From Roseiflexus sp. (GTDB lineage: Bacteria; Chloroflexota; Chloroflexia; Chloroflexales; Roseiflexaceae), in contig JANXAL010000105.1 of the NCBI GenBank assembly GCA_025062325.1, positions 1 to 63,586 on the forward strand: 63,586 bases of DNA, given 5' to 3'. Made by a program: the position numbers and the translations under genes. Position 1 is the first letter of the stretch; the number at the start of each line of letters is the position of its first letter. The notes beneath the pieces were generated by a model. The model was not told where the DNA came from and searched no databases. It saw nothing but the letters and a program-made list of their open reading frames with translations. Below are positions 35,617 to 45,360 of this stretch, piece after piece.

Positions 35617-35829
35617 TTACGTGTTGGTTTCTCCCCGTTGATCTATCTCATCCTCTGCAAGCAACCCCAGGCTGTCGTCCGGGTGCAGGCGGTGGATGAC
35701 CAGGCGCAGTCTCCCCGGCGGCGTGCCCAGCACCTCTTGAAAAATGGCGACGGCTTCGCGCGCAAAGGCGCGTCGGCGTTCCAGCGGCAGGGGTTCTTCG
35801 GCAGCGTAGAGTACTTCGAGCAGCGGCAT
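35617..35829 (-). CDS. 4-oxalocrotonate tautomerase-family subunit with Pro1
   Basis: 70 residues, the length of a 4-OT subunit. After removal of Met the N-terminus is Pro (MPLLEVLYAAEEP), the general base of the tautomerase superfamily. The position of 4-OT Arg11 is occupied by an acidic residue, while the Arg39 region reads GRLRLVIHRL. This is the reverse of the paralogue at 38894-39106. It is the last gene of the meta-cleavage operon, 107 bases after the hydratase. It may form a mixed hexamer with that paralogue. GAAGAGG lies upstream of the ATG. Confidence 0.8.
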   Translation of the reverse strand: MPLLEVLYAAEEPLPLERRRAFAREAVAIFQEVLGTPPGRLRLVIHRLHPDDSLGLLAEDEIDQRGETNT

Positions 35830-35936
35830 TGTACATCCTCTTCTCCCGTCCTCCTTGCAATGCTCGCCTCTAAGCGTTGTCTGGTGCGCAGCAGGCGTTG
35901 GCTGCGACAGGCTCAGCCAACGCCGGGAGCAACGCT

Positions 35937-36740
35937 CTATACAAATCGCATGCTCAACGGCGGCTGCCCGTGGATTTCGAGCGTGAACAGGTCGCCGGGA
36001 CGCATGGGGATGGCGGGACCGAGTGAGCCGGAGAGAACGATGTCGCCTGGTTCGAGGCTGATGCCAAACGCAATCAGTTTGTTTGCCAGCCAGGCGACGG
36101 CGCGCGCCGGGTGCCCCAATGCCGCTGCGCCGATCCCCTGGACGGCGGGTTCACCGTTGTAGTGCAGCAGCATGCCCACTGTGCGCAGATCGACGTGGCG
36201 CAGGACGCGACTCCAGGGTCCCAGCGTGAACCCGCCATACGATGCGTTGTCAGCGACAGTATCAACCAGTTTGATGCGCCAGTCGGCGATGCGGCTGTCG
36301 ACGATTTCGATAGCCGCGGCGATCGCCTCGGTGGCTGCCAGCACATCGTGCAGGGTCGCCCCCGGTTCGCGCAGCGGTCGCCCGATGAGGAACGCAAGTT
36401 CCCCTTCGACGCGCGCCTGCACAAACAGGTCTGCCGGCACATCGACGCGCCCGCCAGCGAGCGGAAAGTAGCGCGATGCCCACAGGCTGCCGTAGTCCGG
36501 CTCGTTGACGCCGAGTTGTTGCTGGATGGCGCGGCTGGTCAGCCCAATCTTGCGCCCGATGACTCGATCGCCGCGCGCCAGGCGCAAGTCTGTCCAGCGC
36601 GACTGGATGGCATACGCCTGCTCGGCGGTCAGCGCCAGGCTCTCGCTCAACGGCGCTAGCGGCTGGCGCTGTTCCCAGGCATTATCGAGGCGCTGCGCCA
36701 CTGCGTCGATGTCTACCCCGCCTACTGGTTGCTCAGGCAT
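35937..36740 (-). CDS. 2-oxopent-4-enoate hydratase (MhpD/DmpE type)
   Basis: 267 residues of the fumarylacetoacetate hydrolase-related hydratase/decarboxylase family. VIGRKIGLTSRAIQQQLG, VEGELAFLIG with the paired metal-binding glutamates, and AAAIEIVDSRIADW are diagnostic. It should add water to 2-hydroxypenta-2,4-dienoate to give 4-hydroxy-2-oxovalerate, the substrate of the aldolase encoded in the same operon. The start overlaps the 3' end of the dehydrogenase gene by 19 bases, so translation is probably coupled. The decarboxylase at 38176 is its paralogue and normal complex partner. Confidence 0.88.
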   Translation of the reverse strand: MPEQPVGGVDIDAVAQRLDNAWEQRQPLAPLSESLALTAEQAYAIQSRWTDLRLARGDRVIGRKIGLTSRAIQQQLGVNEPDYGSLWASRYFPLAGGRVDVPADLFVQARVEGELAFLIGRPLREPGATLHDVLAATEAIAAAIEIVDSRIADWRIKLVDTVADNASYGGFTLGPWSRVLRHVDLRTVGMLLHYNGEPAVQGIGAAALGHPARAVAWLANKLIAFGISLEPGDIVLSGSLGPAIPMRPGDLFTLEIHGQPPLSMRFV

Positions 36741-38176
36741 ACCGTCTTCGCCTCCGTGAAAAACTCAAGGCTGTAGTGCCCGCCTTCGCGCCCGATGCCG
36801 CTCTGCTTCATCCCACCGAACGGCACGCGCAGATCGCGCACGAAGAAGTCGTTGACCCAGACGGTGCCTGCATCGATCGCGCCAGCGACCCGCACGGCGC
36901 GCCCCAGGTTGCGCGTCTGCACGACCGCCGAGAGACCATAGGCAACGCCGTTGGCAATCGCGATCGCTTCGTCCTCGCCGTCGAATGGCGCAACCGTAAC
37001 GACCGGACCGAAGATCTCCTCCTGGCAGACGCGATCCTGCGGTTGCACGCCGACAATGATCGTCGGGTTGAGGAAATTGCCGCGATCAAACGGCGCCGGG
37101 AGGTTGGGCTGATCGCCGCCGAGGACGATTTCCGCCTGCGTGCCGCGCGCAATGTCGATGTAACTGCGCACGCGCTGCAGATGCTCCGGGGCAATCAATG
37201 CGCCCACAGTCGTCTCCGGGTCCATCGGGTCGCCGACGCGCAACTGTTGCGTGGCAGTGATGAACCGCTGCAGGAACTCGTCGTAGATCGGGCGCTCGAC
37301 CAGCAGCCGCGGACCGGCAAGGCAGAACTCGCCCTGGTTGAAGAAGGATGAGCGCAGGCTGATCGCAACGGCGCGATCCAGGTCGGCGTCCGCAAAGATG
37401 ATATTCGCGCCTTTGCCCCCCAACTCGAACGACAGGCGCTTGAGAGTGTGCGACGCCGCGCCCATGATGATTTTGCCGGTTGTGCTCTCGCCGGTGAACG
37501 AAATCAACTGCACGCCAGGGTGCTGCGTCAGCAGCGCGCCCGCCGACTCAGGACCGAATCCGTGAACGACGTTGAACACTCCTGGCGGTAGACCGGCGCT
37601 GTGCGCGATCTGTGCCAGTTTCCACGCGCCGATCGGCGTCAATTCGGCGGGTTTGAGCACGACGGTGTTACCAAAGGCGAGCGCTGGACCGATCTTCCAC
37701 GTCGCCTGGAGCATCGGGACGTTCCAGGGAGTGATCAGCGCCGCCGCGCCGACCGGCTGGCGCAGCACGTAGTTGATGTAGCCGCTGTCCATCGGGTAGG
37801 CTTCGCTGCCGTGGGTGACAGCAAAATCGGCGAAGAACTCGATGTTGGCGGCGAGACGCTGCACATATCCGGCGCGGTTCTCGCGGATCGGTCTGCCGAC
37901 ATCCCAGGTCTCGATCTGTTCGAGTTCTTCGGTGTGCGCGCGAATCGCATCGGCGAACGCCTTCAGCACCCGCCGCCGCTCGGCGGCACCGGCGCGCCCC
38001 CACGTGGCGAAGGCGCGCATTGCCGCCTGCACCGCCGCATCGACCTCGTCTGCGCGACCCTCCGGCGCCGTGCCGATGACTTCATTCGTCGCCGGGTAGA
38101 AAATCTCGAAGCGGCGCGTTCCTTCGACAAATGCGCCGTCAATGTAGTGTTGCACATGAAATGAAGGAGTCCGCAT
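36722..38176 (-). CDS. 2-hydroxymuconic semialdehyde dehydrogenase
   Basis: 484 residues of the aldehyde dehydrogenase superfamily. The catalytic base is E251 in SFELGGKGANIIF, the nucleophile is C285 in FNQGEFCLAGPR, and the oxyanion Asn is in ITPWNVP. It should oxidise the ring-cleavage product 2-hydroxymuconic semialdehyde to 2-hydroxymuconate with NAD+, the dehydrogenase branch of the meta pathway. The substrate is inferred from the operon. It overlaps the neighbouring genes on both sides (one base with the decarboxylase stop, 19 with the hydratase start). Confidence 0.9.
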   Translation of the reverse strand: MRTPSFHVQHYIDGAFVEGTRRFEIFYPATNEVIGTAPEGRADEVDAAVQAAMRAFATWGRAGAAERRRVLKAFADAIRAHTEELEQIETWDVGRPIRENRAGYVQRLAANIEFFADFAVTHGSEAYPMDSGYINYVLRQPVGAAALITPWNVPMLQATWKIGPALAFGNTVVLKPAELTPIGAWKLAQIAHSAGLPPGVFNVVHGFGPESAGALLTQHPGVQLISFTGESTTGKIIMGAASHTLKRLSFELGGKGANIIFADADLDRAVAISLRSSFFNQGEFCLAGPRLLVERPIYDEFLQRFITATQQLRVGDPMDPETTVGALIAPEHLQRVRSYIDIARGTQAEIVLGGDQPNLPAPFDRGNFLNPTIIVGVQPQDRVCQEEIFGPVVTVAPFDGEDEAIAIANGVAYGLSAVVQTRNLGRAVRVAGAIDAGTVWVNDFFVRDLRVPFGGMKQSGIGREGGHYSLEFFTEAKTVCLSNQ

Positions 38177-38910
38177 CAGTCATTCTCCAATCGCACAATC
38201 AGGCGGTCTTCACCCGGTCCAATCACCTCCAGCACTCCTGACTCGGCTGGCGTCGCCGCTGCCGGTGAGCCGAAGAAGATGACCTGACCCGCGCGCAACC
38301 CGCCGGTCATAGTTGCCAGCCAGCCCAGGCGCTCGTACAGGTTGCCAAGGGTGCGCAGGTCTCCCTCGGCGCGCAGCGCGCCGTTGAGGTAGAGGCGCAG
38401 CATGCCGTCAGGCGGGTGATCGAGCATGCGCGCGCCGAGCAAAAACCCGCCGCCGGAACTGTTGTCGGCGACGACTTCGGCAGCGCTGAAGCGGTACCCG
38501 TCCCAGACACTGTCCAGCACATCGACGCCGAGAAACCATCCGCCAACCGCTGCCGCCGCCGCGCCGGGAGCGGCGCCCGGCGCCAGCGGCGCGCACAGAA
38601 TCGCGGCGAGTTCCGGCTCGACCCGCGGCTGAATGAACCGGCTGAGCCGCACCGGGCTTTCCAGCATCATGCTGGAGAAGATGCGCCCGTAAACCGGCTC
38701 ACTGATTCCCATCTGCTGTTGCTTTGCCGGGCTGAGCAACCCCAGTTTGTACCCTTTGATCGGCTGCCCTTCGCCCAGCGCCGCCTGAATAGCATACGCC
38801 TCCGCCAGCGTCACCTGGCGCGCGCTGCCGCGGCTGGCAACCGTGCGGCGACCTGCGCGCGCCTGGCGGATCTCTTCCAGTAATGCCAGCGCATCAGCGC
38901 TCAGTTCCAT
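38176..38910 (-). CDS. 4-oxalocrotonate decarboxylase (DmpH type)
   Basis: 244 residues, same family as the hydratase at 35937 but with decarboxylase-type features: PIKGYKLGLLSPAKQQQMG, RFIQPRVEPELAAILC and GVDVLDSVWDGYRF. It should release CO2 from 2-oxo-3-hexenedioate to give 2-hydroxypenta-2,4-dienoate, which the paired hydratase then uses. The start ATG 38910 (MELSADALALLEEI) lies inside the end of the tautomerase-like gene, 17 bases of overlap. The stop codon overlaps the ATG of the dehydrogenase gene by one base. Confidence 0.88.
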   Translation of the reverse strand: MELSADALALLEEIRQARAGRRTVASRGSARQVTLAEAYAIQAALGEGQPIKGYKLGLLSPAKQQQMGISEPVYGRIFSSMMLESPVRLSRFIQPRVEPELAAILCAPLAPGAAPGAAAAAVGGWFLGVDVLDSVWDGYRFSAAEVVADNSSGGGFLLGARMLDHPPDGMLRLYLNGALRAEGDLRTLGNLYERLGWLATMTGGLRAGQVIFFGSPAAATPAESGVLEVIGPGEDRLIVRLEND

Positions 38911-39106
38911 GACTCGTTCCTTCACGCTCTGCCAGTGACCGTCCCCCGACACCCCAGTGGGTCTTGGGAATTTCATAGATCACTAGGCGAACCTCTTCCA
39001 GCGGCAGATCGAAGTGACGCGCGGCGCATTCCGACAGGCGGCGCATCAGCGTGGCGCGCTGTTCGTCCGTGCGCCCTTCAACCATGGTGACCCGTAATAC
39101 CAGCAT
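38894..39106 (-). CDS. 4-oxalocrotonate tautomerase-like subunit lacking Pro1
   Basis: 70 residues, closely matching 4-OT: VTMVEGRTDEQRATLMRRL, EEVRLVIYEIPKTHWGVGG. With 4-OT numbering shifted by one, R12 matches Arg11, R40 matches Arg39, and W51 sits at Phe50. However residue 2 is Leu, not Pro, so the catalytic N-terminal proline is missing. No alternative start supplies it. By itself it should not be an active tautomerase. A second small subunit with Pro1 is encoded at 35617. The gene lies 12 bases after the flavin reductase gene and overlaps the decarboxylase start. Confidence 0.85.
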   Translation of the reverse strand: MLVLRVTMVEGRTDEQRATLMRRLSECAARHFDLPLEEVRLVIYEIPKTHWGVGGRSLAEREGTSHGTER

Positions 39107-39118
39107 GGCACGCTCTTT

Positions 39119-39640
39119 CTACCAGAGATACCAGAACGGACCTTCCGCACCAGCATCGCTGACCGTCTCCATCCGACCGTACTTGCCAGCAAAGAAGAGC
39201 AGCGGCGGTCCGTCGCGGCTGGCAAGGTATTCGACCTGCCCGATGTACAGCGTGTGGTCGCCTGCCGGGTGCGCATCGACTACCCGCGCAACAACGTGCG
39301 CCAGCGCATTGTCGATCAGCGGCACGCCGTGCTGCCAGACGAACGGGATGTGCAGCCCCTCGATCGGACGACCGGCAAAATGACGACTGAGCGCCTCCTG
39401 GTCGTCCGCCAGCACGCTCACGCCATAGCAGCGCCCCGGCGCCAGCAGCGCGTGCAGGCGTGCGCGCGTGGCGACCGATACCAGCACCAGCGGCGGATCG
39501 AGCGACACCGACAGAAACGAGTTCGCTGTCATGCCGTGCGACTGCCCTTCGTGGCAGGTGGTCACAATGGTGACGCCGGTGGCGAATTTGCCCATCGTCG
39601 TGCGGAACTGGCGCGAGTCGAGTTGTGCGGTCATGATCAT
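39119..39640 (-). CDS. hpaC: Flavin reductase, monooxygenase small component (HpaC type)
   Basis: 173 residues of the flavin reductase-like domain family (HpaC/PheA2). RQFRTTMGKFATGVTIVTT opens it, followed by GMTANSFLSVSLDPPLVLVS, FAGRPIEGLHIPFVW, and HTLYIGQVEYLASRDGPPL. It should reduce FAD or FMN with NADH and hand free reduced flavin to the HpaB-type oxygenase at 43795. The ATG at 39640 has CTGGAGA at the right distance; ATG 39634 is a close alternative. Upstream in-frame codons lie in the tandem ACGGAT repeat and are not coding. Confidence 0.9.
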   Translation of the reverse strand: MIMTAQLDSRQFRTTMGKFATGVTIVTTCHEGQSHGMTANSFLSVSLDPPLVLVSVATRARLHALLAPGRCYGVSVLADDQEALSRHFAGRPIEGLHIPFVWQHGVPLIDNALAHVVARVVDAHPAGDHTLYIGQVEYLASRDGPPLLFFAGKYGRMETVSDAGAEGPFWYLW

Positions 39641-39652
39641 CGTCTCCAGTTG

Positions 39653-39872
39653 TGAATAGGACACGGATTTACACGGGTGCGACGGGTTGGCACGGATTTG
39701 TTTATGATCATTCATCCGTGTACATCCGTCTCGATCCGTGAAGATCCGTGTGCTATATCGGGCATGATTTTGAATAGGACACGGATTGGCGCGGGTGCGA
39801 CGGATCGGCGCGGATTTGTTTATCATCATCTATCCGTGCGCATCCGTCTCGATCCGTGAAAATCCGTGTGCT
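39653..39872. repeat. Two tandem 118-base copies of an ACGGAT/ATCCGTG palindromic element
   Basis: Copy 1 starts at 39653 and copy 2 at 39771, each with TGAATAGGACACGGATT. Each has several ACGGAT-type units on the left, an AT-rich centre (GATTTGTTTATSATCATYYA), and ATCCGTG units on the right, so each can fold on itself. The block splits the operon between the aldolase and flavin reductase genes. Confidence 0.85.
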
Positions 39873-39873
39873 A

Positions 39874-40881
39874 TCACCCACCTCGTTTGCGCACCAGTTC
39901 GAGCGCCACGTCCAATATCCAGTCCTCCTGCCCGGCGACCGTCTGGCGTCGCCCCAGTTCGATCAGAATGGCGCGCGGATCGACGCCCAGTTGCTCACCC
40001 ACCCGTTTGGCGTGCAGCAGAAACGTCGAGTAGACCCCCGCATACCCGATGGTGATGGCATCGCGGTCGGGGAAGGGCTGGAAAGGCATGATCGGCGCCA
40101 CCACATACTCGGCAGCGTCCATCAGCGCCAGCACGTCCAGCCCCGGATTGATCCCCAGCCGGTCGAGCACCGCCGCCAGCAGCTCAGTGGCGGCATTGCC
40201 CGCGCCGGCGCCCAACCCCCGGAGACATCCATCGATCTGGTCGGCGCCCGCCTCGAGCGCCGCCAGCGTATTGCCGATCCCCAGCCCCAGGTTGTTGTGG
40301 GCGTGGAAGCCGACCTGCACCCGCAGCGCGGCTTTGAGCGCCCGCACTCGCGCCGCCGCGTCGTGCGGCAGCATCGCACCCGCCGAATCGACCACGTAGA
40401 CGCAGTCGGCGCCATACGACTCCATCAGGGCTGCCTGCTCCGCCAGAAATTCTGGAGGTCTCATATGAGACATCATGAGGAAGCCGACGGTTTCCAGCCC
40501 CATATCCTTTGCCATCTTGAAATGTTCTTCGCTGATGTCCGCTTCGGTGCACTGGGTGGCGATCCGCAGCACCTGCACGCCGCGTTCGACGGCGGCTTTC
40601 AACTCGCGGCGCGTCCCAATGCCGGGGAGGAGCAGCGCCGCAATCCGCGCCCGTTCCGCTGCCGCGCGCGCCTCGGCGATCAGGTCAAGCTCAGGCGTGA
40701 GCGAAAAGCCGTACTGCAACGACGATCCTGCCAGCCCATCGCCATGCGTCACCTCGATCACCGGCACGCCAGCGCGATCCAGCGCGGTCACGATGTCGCG
40801 CACGTGCTGACGGGTGAACGTGTGCCGCATAGCGTGCGATCCATCACGCAGGGTCGTATCGGTCAGACGGGGCGCTTTCAT
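39874..40881 (-). CDS. dmpG: 4-hydroxy-2-oxovalerate aldolase
   Basis: 335 residues of the DmpG/MhpE class II aldolase family. The N-terminus is [17 protein letters not shown] with the catalytic Arg and metal ligands, and [14 protein letters not shown] gives the HxH metal site. It splits 4-hydroxy-2-oxovalerate to pyruvate and acetaldehyde, passing acetaldehyde through a channel to its partner dehydrogenase. The ATG at 40881 overlaps the stop of the acetaldehyde dehydrogenase gene as ATGA, and GGAGG lies just upstream. The C-terminus has the extra helical domain that contacts the dehydrogenase. Confidence 0.95.
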
Positions 40882-41795
40882 ACAAGCACCTCCCGGCGAC
40901 TCAGCAGATGTTGGGCGAACACCTCGCCAACCCGTCGCGCTGAGGCGGTCATGATGTCGAGATTGCCGGCATAAGGCGGGAGGAAATGTCCTGCTCCTTC
41001 GACCTCCAGCAGCACGGTCACGACCGGTTTGCGCCCCCACGGTGTGTCACGCATATCGAACACTGGCGGATTCTTCAGCCGGTAGCCGGGCACGTACTGC
41101 TGCACCTCGGCAACCATCGACTCAATGGATTCGCGCACCTGCGCCGGGTCGAAATCGCTCTCCGGGATGGCATAGACCGTGTTGCGCATCAGAATCGGCG
41201 GTTCTGCCGGGTTGAGGATGATGATCGCCTTCCCCTGTTGTGCGCCGCCGATGACTTCCAGACCGTGCGCCGTGGTGAAGGTGAACTCGTCGATATTTTG
41301 GCGGGTACCTGGTCCGGCGGAGCGGCTGGCGATGGTGCTGACAATTTCGGCATAGCGCACCGGCGTCACGCGGCTGACAGCGTAGACCAGCGGAATCGTC
41401 GCCTGACCGCCGCAAGTGATGAGGTTGACATTCAGCGCATCAAGGTGCTGCCTGAGATTGACCGGCGGGACCACGTAAGGTCCACGCGCGGCTGGCGTCA
41501 GGTCAATGGCGATCCTGCCAGTTTCGCGCAAGAGTTTCGCGTGACGCACATGCGCTCTGGCGCTGGTCGCATCAAAGACGATCTGGATCTCAGGATGCTC
41601 CAGCACAGCGTCGATGCCCTGTGCACTGGCTGCCACGCCGAGCGCGCGCGCACGCGCCAGACCTTCGGAGTGGGGATCGATTCCTGCCAGCAACGCCAGT
41701 TCCATCGAACCGGGGCAATCAAGGATTTTGTACATGAGGTCGGTTCCGATATTTCCGGAGCCGAGGATGGCAACTTTTATCGTTTCATCGCCCAT
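40878..41795 (-). CDS. dmpF: Acetaldehyde dehydrogenase (acylating)
   Basis: 305 residues. The Rossmann start is [19 protein letters not shown] and the catalytic cysteine is C128 in [14 protein letters not shown]. It oxidises acetaldehyde plus CoA to acetyl-CoA with NAD+, in a complex with the aldolase encoded directly downstream by an ATGA overlap. The pairing shows that the pathway yields acetaldehyde rather than succinic semialdehyde, so catechol or a simple phenol is the likely starting compound. Its start overlaps the IclR gene by 19 bases. Confidence 0.95.
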
Positions 41796-42553
41796 CGAGG
41801 CATTCCTCTGTGGTAGCCCAGGTTTTCGGAGACACGCTGAGCCGCCTCCACAATGATTGCAACATAGCTAGCGCGCTGCGCCTGGAAGCGATGTGTGGGC
41901 AACGAGATGCTCATCGCCGCAATCACGCGACCTTCAAAGTTGTAGATCGGCGCTGCAACGCAGCAGAGACCAATCGACACCTCTTCCTGATCGCAGGCAT
42001 AGCCGCGCTGCCGCACCAGTTCCAGTTCGCGCGCCAGGTCTTCCGGCGTGGTGATCGTATTGGGAGTGAAGGCGTGCATGCCCTGCTGCTCGAGAATCTG
42101 CGCGACCTCATTCCAGGGCGCGTGCGCGAGCAGCACCTTGCCGACGCCGCTGCAGTGCGCTGGCAACCGCGCGCCGACGCCCGACAGCGAGATGTGAACA
42201 GCGTGCGTTCCTTCAAGTTTTTCGATGTAGATCACCTGACCGCTCTCCAGCACCGCCAGGTGCATCGTCTCGCCCCAGCGCGCCACAACTTCTTCCATCA
42301 CCTGGCGCGCCTCGGCGCGAAACTCGGTGGTTTTGAGGAGCGTCTGCCCGAATTCGAGCAATCGCCATCCCAGCCGGTAGCGCCCCGGACCGGTGCGGCG
42401 CAATAACCCCTGCCCTGCCATGCTGCTCAACAACTCCGATGTACTCGATTTGGGCTGTTCGAGCGCACGTGCGATGTCGCCAACCGTCCATTCAGGGTGG
42501 GCTGGCGAGAAGAGGCTCAGAACCTCGACGGCTTTCTGGAGTGTTTGAAGCAT
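41777..42553 (-). CDS. IclR family transcriptional regulator
   Basis: 258 residues. An N-terminal winged helix ([40 protein letters not shown]) is followed by the IclR effector domain ([56 protein letters not shown]). It very probably controls the aromatic operon in which it lies, responding to a pathway compound. It is unusual in being inside the operon, same strand, overlapping the acetaldehyde dehydrogenase gene, so it should be made together with the enzymes. ATG 42553 is preceded by a poor ribosome site. Confidence 0.92.
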
Positions 42554-42576
42554 AGCGGGTGTACCTCGCCCTACAA

Positions 42577-42738
42577 TGGTGACGGTCACGCCTACCGGTA
42601 GCGCCAGCAGCGCCGCCAGCGCTGGGAATGCAGGCGGTGCTTGTCGTTCCTGCGCCACCCACGTGACTGTCACCTTAATTCGCGCCAACCACAACGCCTC
42701 TGCACCTGTCTCCCCTCTCCCGCAGTGCGGGAGAGGGG
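42577..42738. repeat. GTGACNGTCAC pair and a perfect GC-rich hairpin before iclR
   Basis: GTGACGGTCAC at 42579-42589 and GTGACTGTCAC at 42663-42673 bracket an 84-base unit. Next to it, 42712-42738 is a perfect hairpin, CCCCTCTCCCGCA, one base, TGCGGGAGAGGGG. The block lies in the 207-base gap between the dioxygenase and iclR genes, where it could separate an early oxygenase transcript from the rest, though that is speculation. Confidence 0.75.
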
Positions 42739-42760
42739 CAGGGGGTGAGGGCAAACTGAG

Positions 42761-43768
42761 TCAATTCGCACCGACCAACTCTTCCTCGGCGCGTTCCTGC
42801 GTTTCCTTCTGCACCGGCGGCGTGCCGTACATGAAGTACTCGGCGGGCAGCGGCGAACCGAACCAGATGATGCCCTTTGCCAGATTCGACTCGTGCCAGG
42901 TGATCGGCTTCCAGTCCGGATCGAAGATCAGATAGCCTGTGTCGCCGAACAGTTCGACGCGGTTGCCGCCCGGCTCGAAGACGTACATGAAGAGCGCCTG
43001 GCTGATGCCATGCTTGCCCGGTCCCGCCTCAATTGTAATGCCATAATCGGAGAAGACGTCGGCGATGTCCGACAGATGCTGCGGGATGCCGTACCAATAG
43101 CAGATGTGGTGGAGGCGTCCCCTGGCGCCAGCAGCGTCGCGCATGGTCGCAATTTCGTGGACGAGCGGGCTGACGCTGAGCCAGGCGCCCGCTTCGGAGC
43201 CGTCGTTCAGAATGATGTGCTCGCGCAGACGGAACCCCAGTTGATCCATCAGGAACTGCTTGTTGGGCGTGACGTTCTGGCACAACAGGTTTACATGGTC
43301 GAGCCGGCGCACCGGCACGCCACGCAGGGGTCGCTTCTGCGGACGGTTGAGCAGTTCGGTGCGCATTGTCTCGGGCGCCTGGTAGTACTCCACGTCCCAG
43401 AACAGTTCCATCAGGTGACCATCGGGCGTGGTGAACTGATAGGCGCGCCCATGCCCGTGGTCGCCGTCGATCCACCCGCGCCCCAGACCAACGGCTTCGA
43501 TTGCCTGCACGCGGCGCTCGAGCGCCTGCGGCGAGGTCGTGCGCCAGGCGACATGCCCCAAGCCCGGCTGATCCGCCTCGGTGACCTTCAGGCTGTGATG
43601 GTAGTAATCCTCATACGCGCGCAGATAGACTGATTTGCCGGATCGCTCGGTTTCTTCGAGACCAAGCAGTTCCTTGAAGAACCAGAGAGTATCGTTCAGT
43701 TTCGGCGTCAGGATTTCGACATGCGCCAGTTGCGCGACATCGAAGATTGGCTCTTTGTAGCCCGTCAT
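42761..43768 (-). CDS. Extradiol ring-cleavage dioxygenase (catechol 2,3-dioxygenase type)
   Basis: 335 residues made of two vicinal oxygen chelate modules. The iron ligands are expected at H158 ([11 protein letters not shown]), H220 or H221 ([10 protein letters not shown]) and E272 (GNRVELFGD), spaced as in type I extradiol enzymes. It should open catechol between C2 and C3 to 2-hydroxymuconic semialdehyde using Fe(II) and O2. The C-terminal 45 residues (after [15 protein letters not shown]) extend slightly beyond the usual fold. The gene follows the monooxygenase gene by 26 bases. Downstream enzymes point to catechol rather than homoprotocatechuate as substrate. Confidence 0.9.
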
Positions 43769-43794: not shown

Positions 43795-45360
43795 TTACTT
43801 GCCGTTGCCAAACCGTCGCAGGATGACATTCACATCATCAGGGTTGATCAGGTCGGGAACCGTCCAGCCGTCGAGGTCGTACTCGCTGAGACACTGATCG
43901 GCAAACCCTTTGTACCGGTCGGCGGCGCCGGTCGCCATCGCTGTCAGCAGCACCTCCAGGCGGATGTTCTCATGGTTGCCAGCGTAGTTGCGCTCATACA
44001 GTTCGTGGCGTCCGCCAAACTCAGAACCGATCGCGTCCCACAGCAGTTTCATCAGTTTGACGCGATCAAGCGACGAGTAGCCATTCGAGCCGCGCAGATA
44101 CTTGTCGAGATAGCCGCGGATTTCGGGAGTCTTGAAATCGACGGCGTGCGAATTGAGATAAATCAGCGCACTGGCGACATCGCTCTCGATCAGTTCCTTG
44201 ACGCGCGGGTACGCAACCGTCGCAAACACACGATATGCCAGCCCGTAATCCAGGTTTGGCAGCACTGCGCCATCATTCCAGGGGATCGGCGTGCGCGCCA
44301 TCGCATCGCTGATCGCCCAGAAGAGATTGCGCCAGGCAAGCACCTCGCCGACGCGCGCTTGCACGCCGCGGAACTCCTTCGCGCCTGTCGCCTCGACTGC
44401 CTTCAGGAACAGACCGGCAATGAAATCGAGTTTGACCGCCATGCGGGTGCAGCCGTGGAATGTAAAGCGTGGAATGAAGCCGGACAGCGGGAAGAAGGCG
44501 TTAACCTTCTCAACATCGCCGTACACGAAGACGTTCTCCCAGGGGATCAGCACCTGGTCGAAGATCATGACCGAGTCATTCTCGTCGAGGCGGCTCGAGA
44601 GCGGATAATCGAAGGGGCTGCCCATAACCTCCGCCGCCATCTCATACGACGGGCGGGCGATCAGTTTGACGCCGGGAGCGTCCATCGGCACGATGAAGAT
44701 CAGAGCAAACTCTTTGCTCCTGATCGGCAGCGGACCGTAGTGCGCAATAAAGTTGTAGTGCGTCAGCGCCGATCCCGTGGCGACGACCTTCGCGCCGCTG
44801 ACGATCAGACCGGCGTCGGTCTCGCGCTCGACGTGCATGTACACATCGCGGATTTCGTCCGGGGGGCGATTGCGATCAATCGGCGGATTGACAATTGCGT
44901 GGTTGAAGAAGAGCACCCGCTCCTGCGATTCGCGGTACCAGCGCCGCGCATTCTCCTGGTAGGGAGTGTAAAACTCCGCATTTGCGCCAAGCGTTGCCAG
45001 GAAGGCGGCTTTGTAATCGGGACTGCGCCCCAGCCAGCCATAGGTCAACCGCGCCCACTCGGCAATCGCATCGCGGGCGCCGACCAGGTCGTCCACACTG
45101 CGCGACGCACGGAAGAACTTGTGGGTGAAACCGCCGTTGCCAGTATCGGTGGGGCAGGTCAATACCGGTTGCTTCTGAGGGTCGTGCAGGGCATCGTAGA
45201 GGCGGGCAACCATACGGGCGGCGTTGCGGAACGCCGGGTGGGTGGTGATGTCCTTGACGCGCTCGCCATAAATCCAGATTTCACGCCCATCACGCAGACT
45301 CTCCAGGTACTCCTCGCCAGTGAGGGGCACGGTCGTTTTTGTCGCAGTCTCAACGGTCAT
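43795..45360 (-). CDS. hpaB: 4-hydroxyphenylacetate 3-monooxygenase family oxygenase (HpaB type)
   Basis: 521 residues of the HpaB/PheA1 flavin-dependent oxygenase family, acyl-CoA dehydrogenase-like in fold. [20 protein letters not shown] at the N-terminus, [32 protein letters not shown] and [14 protein letters not shown] are characteristic. It uses reduced flavin from HpaC plus O2 to hydroxylate a phenol ortho to its hydroxyl group; with the pathway genes present, phenol to catechol is the simplest reading. It is the first gene of the meta-cleavage operon, with GGGAGGT before the ATG. Confidence 0.92.

Follow-up and report, generated by a model that had tools for sequence, protein, structure and literature searches.

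In the founder 4-oxalocrotonate tautomerase (4-OT) of Pseudomonas putida mt-2 (1BJP), Pro1 lies between Arg11′ and Arg39″, which are contributed by other subunits (PMC5818174). According to the mechanism proposed for 4-OT, Arg39 contacts the 2-hydroxyl group and the C1 carboxylate, Arg11 contacts the C6 carboxylate, and Pro1 carries a proton from the 2-hydroxyl group to C5 (PMC4786785). Two-subunit relatives are known as well, including the heterohexameric 4-OT (hh4-OT) of Chloroflexus aurantiacus J-10-fl (3MB2; Burks et al. 2010, cited in PMC5818174) and trans-3-chloroacrylic acid dehalogenase (CaaD; 1S0Y, 3EJ7), which is built from three α–β dimers whose subunits share just 19% identity (PMC5818174). 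Furthermore, the fused relative Linker 2 carries both equivalent arginines on the half without an N-terminal Pro (PMC5818174). Here, we analyzed two small genes on a Roseiflexus sp. contig of 63,586 nucleotides (the window), encoding the proteins P0003 and P0002. We conclude with high confidence that they encode the α (P0003) and β (P0002) subunits of an hh4-OT that is orthologous to 3MB2 and acts in a meta-cleavage pathway.

Both open reading frames (ORFs) were found on the minus strand where a first-pass annotation of this DNA had placed them (Table 1), and the plus strand encodes no tautomerase at either locus. Each product comprises 70 residues, with MLVLRVTMVEGRT at the start and VRLVIYEIPKTHWGVGG at the end of P0003, and MPLLEVLYAAEEP at the start and PPGRLRLVIH at the end of P0002. 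Counting the residue following Met as position 1, α carries Leu1, Arg11, Arg39, and Trp50, and β carries Pro1, Glu11, Arg39, and Asp50. This agrees with the earlier reading of a tautomerase with Leu replacing Pro1 and with Arg11, Arg39, and the aromatic residue 50 kept, next to a second protein with Pro1 and Glu11; Arg39 of β had not been mentioned. The combination expected for a homohexameric 4-OT, i.e., Pro1, Arg11, Arg39, and an aromatic residue 50 on one chain, is present in neither protein. P0003 aligns with 1BJP along its length (1.1e-12) and matches the Pfam family Tautomerase (PF01361, E 2.4e-13), whereas P0002 matches solely Tautomerase-like (PF21420, E 9e-16) and no NCBIfam model. 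Comparison with six related genomes yielded dN/dS values of 0.00–0.04 for α and 0.03–0.20 for β; purifying selection acts on both genes alike. Based on the Pfam E-values, the low dN/dS values, and matches to solved structures, both ORFs are more than chance.

For the latter, each protein was searched against every chain of known structure. The best single-unit wild-type chain for P0003 was 3mb2_A, the α chain (2.6e-20); the fused double-unit 4-OT chains 7puo and 6blm scored higher because two matches are summed per fused chain. P0002 matched best to 3mb2_B, the β chain (2e-14). AlphaFold single-chain models, built from the window and relative sequences, reached pLDDT values of 89.8 for α and 81.3 for β. 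The top three fold matches were α chains of 3MB2 for the α model and β chains of 3MB2 for the β model. The window genes are hence orthologues of both 3MB2 chains, which lends strong support to the proposal of a mixed two-subunit 4-OT of the C. aurantiacus type.

The distribution of both subunits was determined in 158 genomes of the class. The close α type was present in 23 genomes and β in 24, with both in 22 (Fisher p 1.4e-23, uncorrected for shared descent). Among the 23 α orthologues, Pro1 was never observed (Leu1 in 22, Met1 in one), and Arg11, Arg39, and Trp50 were invariant. Pro1 and Arg39 were present in all 24 β orthologues, and position 11 was occupied by Glu (16), Gln (5), His (2), or Arg (1). 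The single Arg11 belongs to genome G007. Its translations are identical to both 3MB2 chains in the parts printed, which identifies G007 as C. aurantiacus. As position 11 is variable and is Arg in the C. aurantiacus β subunit, Glu11 does not represent a meaningful catalytic loss, and the idea that it renders the pair complementary was rejected. Seven genomes with a Pro1-bearing 4-OT (MPIVRI... or MPIIRV...) had no β over the cut-off; the presence of β therefore accompanies an α without Pro1. In the α tree, every Pro1-less sequence was placed on one side of a branch (91/87), and many forks were weak due to the 66 columns available. The nearest named relatives of the window are Roseiflexus metagenome-assembled genomes (MAGs), and α of Roseiflexus sp. 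SKYG45 is identical to the window α.

Both genes belong to an eleven-gene operon with intergenic gaps of ≤107 bases. It is transcribed in the order HpaB-type hydroxylase, catechol 2,3-dioxygenase, IclR-type regulator, acetaldehyde dehydrogenase, hydroxyoxovalerate aldolase, flavin reductase, α, DmpH-like decarboxylase, semialdehyde dehydrogenase, DmpE-like hydratase, and β. The same order is common to C. aurantiacus G007 and to G065 of the same genus, and recurs on additional contigs from Chloroflexus and Roseiflexus-like bacteria. In Thermus brockianus and T. igniterrae, it is retained from the regulator to β, with the flavin reductase absent. As Chloroflexus, Roseiflexus-like genomes, and Thermus share the order α, decarboxylase, dehydrogenase, hydratase, β, the separated positions of the subunit genes are the normal layout. 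The first-pass annotation had regarded them as unusual; its residue observations and heterohexamer idea were retained, and the separate positions and β Glu11 as a loss were not. Neither β position 11 nor the operon spacing is notable. The ring-cleaving enzyme, the aldolase, and the acylating dehydrogenase clear their NCBIfam cut-offs, and judged from family assignments, the operon genes together are those of the 4-oxalocrotonate branch of catechol meta-cleavage.

Transferred from 3MB2, three α–β dimers would form a hexamer. β would lose its initiator Met before Pro and provide Pro1 as the catalytic base, and α would retain Met before Leu and provide Arg11, most likely together with Arg39 and Trp50. 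By analogy, each β Pro1 would pair with Arg11 from one α subunit and Arg39 from another. With Pro1 on β and these residues on α, three of the six potential sites would work. Position 11 of β would face solely the three Pro-less sites, which would fit its variability. The pair most likely converts 2-hydroxymuconate to 2-oxo-3-hexenedioate, which would follow the semialdehyde dehydrogenase step and precede that of the decarboxylase. A candidate growth substrate is phenol or a related phenolic.

Several points weigh against this reading. Identity of β to 3mb2_B is just about 48%. Co-occurrence of the subunits is imperfect: genome G115 (81% complete) and genome G117, whose cluster is partly decayed, carry β without α, and G124 carries α without β. 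In G117 (L070, L118), an uncultured Thermomicrobiaceae MAG, β is intact and α absent, the adjoining aldolase and hydroxylase genes are mere fragments, and the cluster looks decayed or misassembled. Furthermore, the exact substrate is putative, as the hydroxylase, dehydrogenase, hydratase, and decarboxylase remain below their NCBIfam cut-offs. The same heterohexamer could act on another natural substrate, e.g., a substituted 2-hydroxymuconate or 5-carboxymethyl-2-hydroxymuconate, in line with the HpaB-type hydroxylase at the start of the operon. HpaB-2 and HpaE are also among the families that the hydroxylase and dehydrogenase match best. However, the ring-cleaving enzyme passes as catechol 2,3-dioxygenase (372 vs. 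320 bits) and fails as HpaD (211 vs. 321 bits), the aldolase, the acylating dehydrogenase, and the DmpE/DmpH-like genes suit the catechol route, and a CHMI-family gene was not found in the window's genome. We therefore consider a different substrate unlikely, though worth keeping in mind.

It is considerably less probable that α and β form separate homo-oligomers, with α as a dead or regulatory paralogue and β as an independent enzyme. Non-catalytic roles have been raised for Pro1-less tautomerases in general (PMC5818174), but the near-perfect co-occurrence of the two genes, their strictly complementary residues, and the heterohexamer structure solved for their orthologues argue for an α–β enzyme, as does β itself, which has neither an aromatic residue at position 50 nor a conserved residue at position 11. 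An assembly artefact (start codon or frameshift) behind the absent Pro1 can practically be dismissed, since an in-frame TAG lies immediately upstream of the α ATG, inspection of the reading frame revealed no in-frame Met-Pro start, and the N-terminus is identical in kind in 3mb2_A and in all 23 orthologues, which begin with Met-Leu or Met-Met (one of them using a GTG start). The first-pass annotation had also named a third full 4-OT gene as a finding that would speak against the pair; four family models (PF01361, PF14552, PF14832, and PF02962) gave only sub-threshold matches and no further tautomerase gene in the window's genome, which is 96.8% complete, so that a missing contig is possible.

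Table 1. Subunit genes of the very probable hh4-OT and accompanying operon genes in the window.
Feature	Position	Strand	Basis
α subunit of hh4-OT (P0003)	38894..39106	minus	Met-Leu start, Arg11, Arg39, Trp50; 3mb2_A, PF01361, fold match, 23 orthologues
β subunit of hh4-OT (P0002)	35617..35829	minus	Pro1, Glu11, Arg39; 3mb2_B, PF21420, fold match, 24 orthologues
DmpE-like 2-oxopent-4-enoate hydratase	35937..36740	minus	TIGR03220 263 bits (cut-off 409), best among its relatives
2-Hydroxymuconic semialdehyde dehydrogenase-like	36722..38176	minus	TIGR02299 578 bits, TIGR03216 561 bits, both below cut-off; PF00171 1.3e-165
DmpH-like 2-oxo-3-hexenedioate decarboxylase	38176..38976	minus	Best NCBIfam TIGR03218 84 bits (cut-off 350); PF01557 27 bits; same place in relatives
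Flavin reductase for HpaB-type hydroxylase	39119..39829	minus	PF01613 8.1e-38
4-Hydroxy-2-oxovalerate aldolase	39874..41040	minus	TIGR03217 526 bits, above cut-off
Acetylating acetaldehyde dehydrogenase	40878..41795	minus	TIGR03215 458 bits, above cut-off
IclR-type regulator	41777..42754	minus	Sequence reading; conserved here in relatives from residue about 55–67
Catechol 2,3-dioxygenase	42761..43768	minus	TIGR03211 372 bits (cut-off 320 passed)
HpaB-type flavin-dependent phenolic hydroxylase	43795..45360	minus	TIGR02310 754 bits (cut-off 885 not reached); PF11794, PF03241

Regarding the neighboring genes, the DmpH-like decarboxylase diverges strongly from the family models, yet is retained in relatives, and its activity is putative; a start at 38910, overlapping the α stop, is plausible. 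For the flavin reductase, homology in relatives starts near residue 65, and the true start is probably internal to the listed ORF, which also probably applies to the IclR-type regulator. Upstream of the flavin reductase, 118-base repeats are present as a tandem pair (39653–39874), which accounts for the larger share of the N-terminal part of the longest flavin reductase ORF. This stretch has 63 matches in the genome (some representing one place on both strands) and is thus a dispersed repeat; the corresponding site of locus L095 apparently contains more copies.

The description of hh4-OT by Burks et al. in 2010 reportedly listed five thermophile genomes with a Pro1-less tautomerase-like gene and a nearby Pro1 gene, and is said to have shown that Pro and two Arg are required. 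We found β homologues in Roseiflexus, Chloroflexus, Thermomicrobiaceae, Thermogemmatispora, Thermus, a Rubrobacteraceae MAG, and a Bacillota MAG; in many cases, a Pro1-less α is located nearby. In Thermomicrobiaceae-type genomes, α is located among lower-pathway genes and β downstream of a hydroxylase–dioxygenase pair, either 11–77 kb off or on another contig. The distance amounts to 17 kb in G125 (L066) and 77 kb in G122 (L067/L068), with the subunit genes belonging to different clusters. The two obligate subunits of a small enzyme would thus be maintained without being closely linked. In our view, the split tautomerase is somewhat more probably an old, thermophile-wide arrangement, including these unlinked genes, than an oddity of Chloroflexus. 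The α and β genes of Thermogemmatispora (L109, L110, and L112) are oriented divergently, with about 300 bases between them; as no meta-cleavage genes of the window type were found in the surrounding DNA (10 kb on each side for L110 and L112), the substrate may differ there. In the Rubrobacteraceae MAG (L108), a hydroxylase–dioxygenase pair is followed about 6 kb downstream by the β homologue, and no α was found within the 15 kb covered. Taken together, two small genes, one of them unrecognised by NCBIfam models, gain a functional name, and the tautomerase step of the meta-cleavage pathway in Roseiflexus-like bacteria is filled. The map of co-occurrence, invariant residues, and linked or unlinked layouts in several phyla could be used for studying the origin of shared active sites, and its wider part, i.e., the β homologues of Thermus, Thermogemmatispora, and the Rubrobacteraceae and Bacillota MAGs together with the unlinked Thermomicrobiaceae genes, may add a little to what is known.

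Compared to the known systems, the window pair shares the fold and the pathway step with the founder 4-OT, which in contrast is a homohexamer encoded by one gene, with Pro1 and both Arg on one chain sequence. An assembly of three α–β dimers would be shared with CaaD, which catalyzes a different reaction. CaaD was ruled out as the nearest relative, as its chains were absent from the structure-sequence matches of α and β and appeared only as weak fold matches of β (E 0.17 or worse). The heterohexamers CF and YR (8T9O, 8T9P) are likewise two-subunit hexamers of the 4-OT family, but more distant: α matches 8T9O with 3.9e-8, compared to 2.6e-20 for 3mb2_A, and β has no sequence match to either. The hh4-OT of C. 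aurantiacus agrees in an α without Pro1 and with Arg11 and Arg39, in a β with Pro1, and in operon order, spacing of the subunit genes (~3.1 kb), and predicted folds. It differs in identity (about 59% for α and the lower value given above for β) and in β position 11, which is Glu in the window and Arg in C. aurantiacus. The window pair is hence an already known enzyme in a Roseiflexus-like genome, which is not new in kind and confirms published biology.

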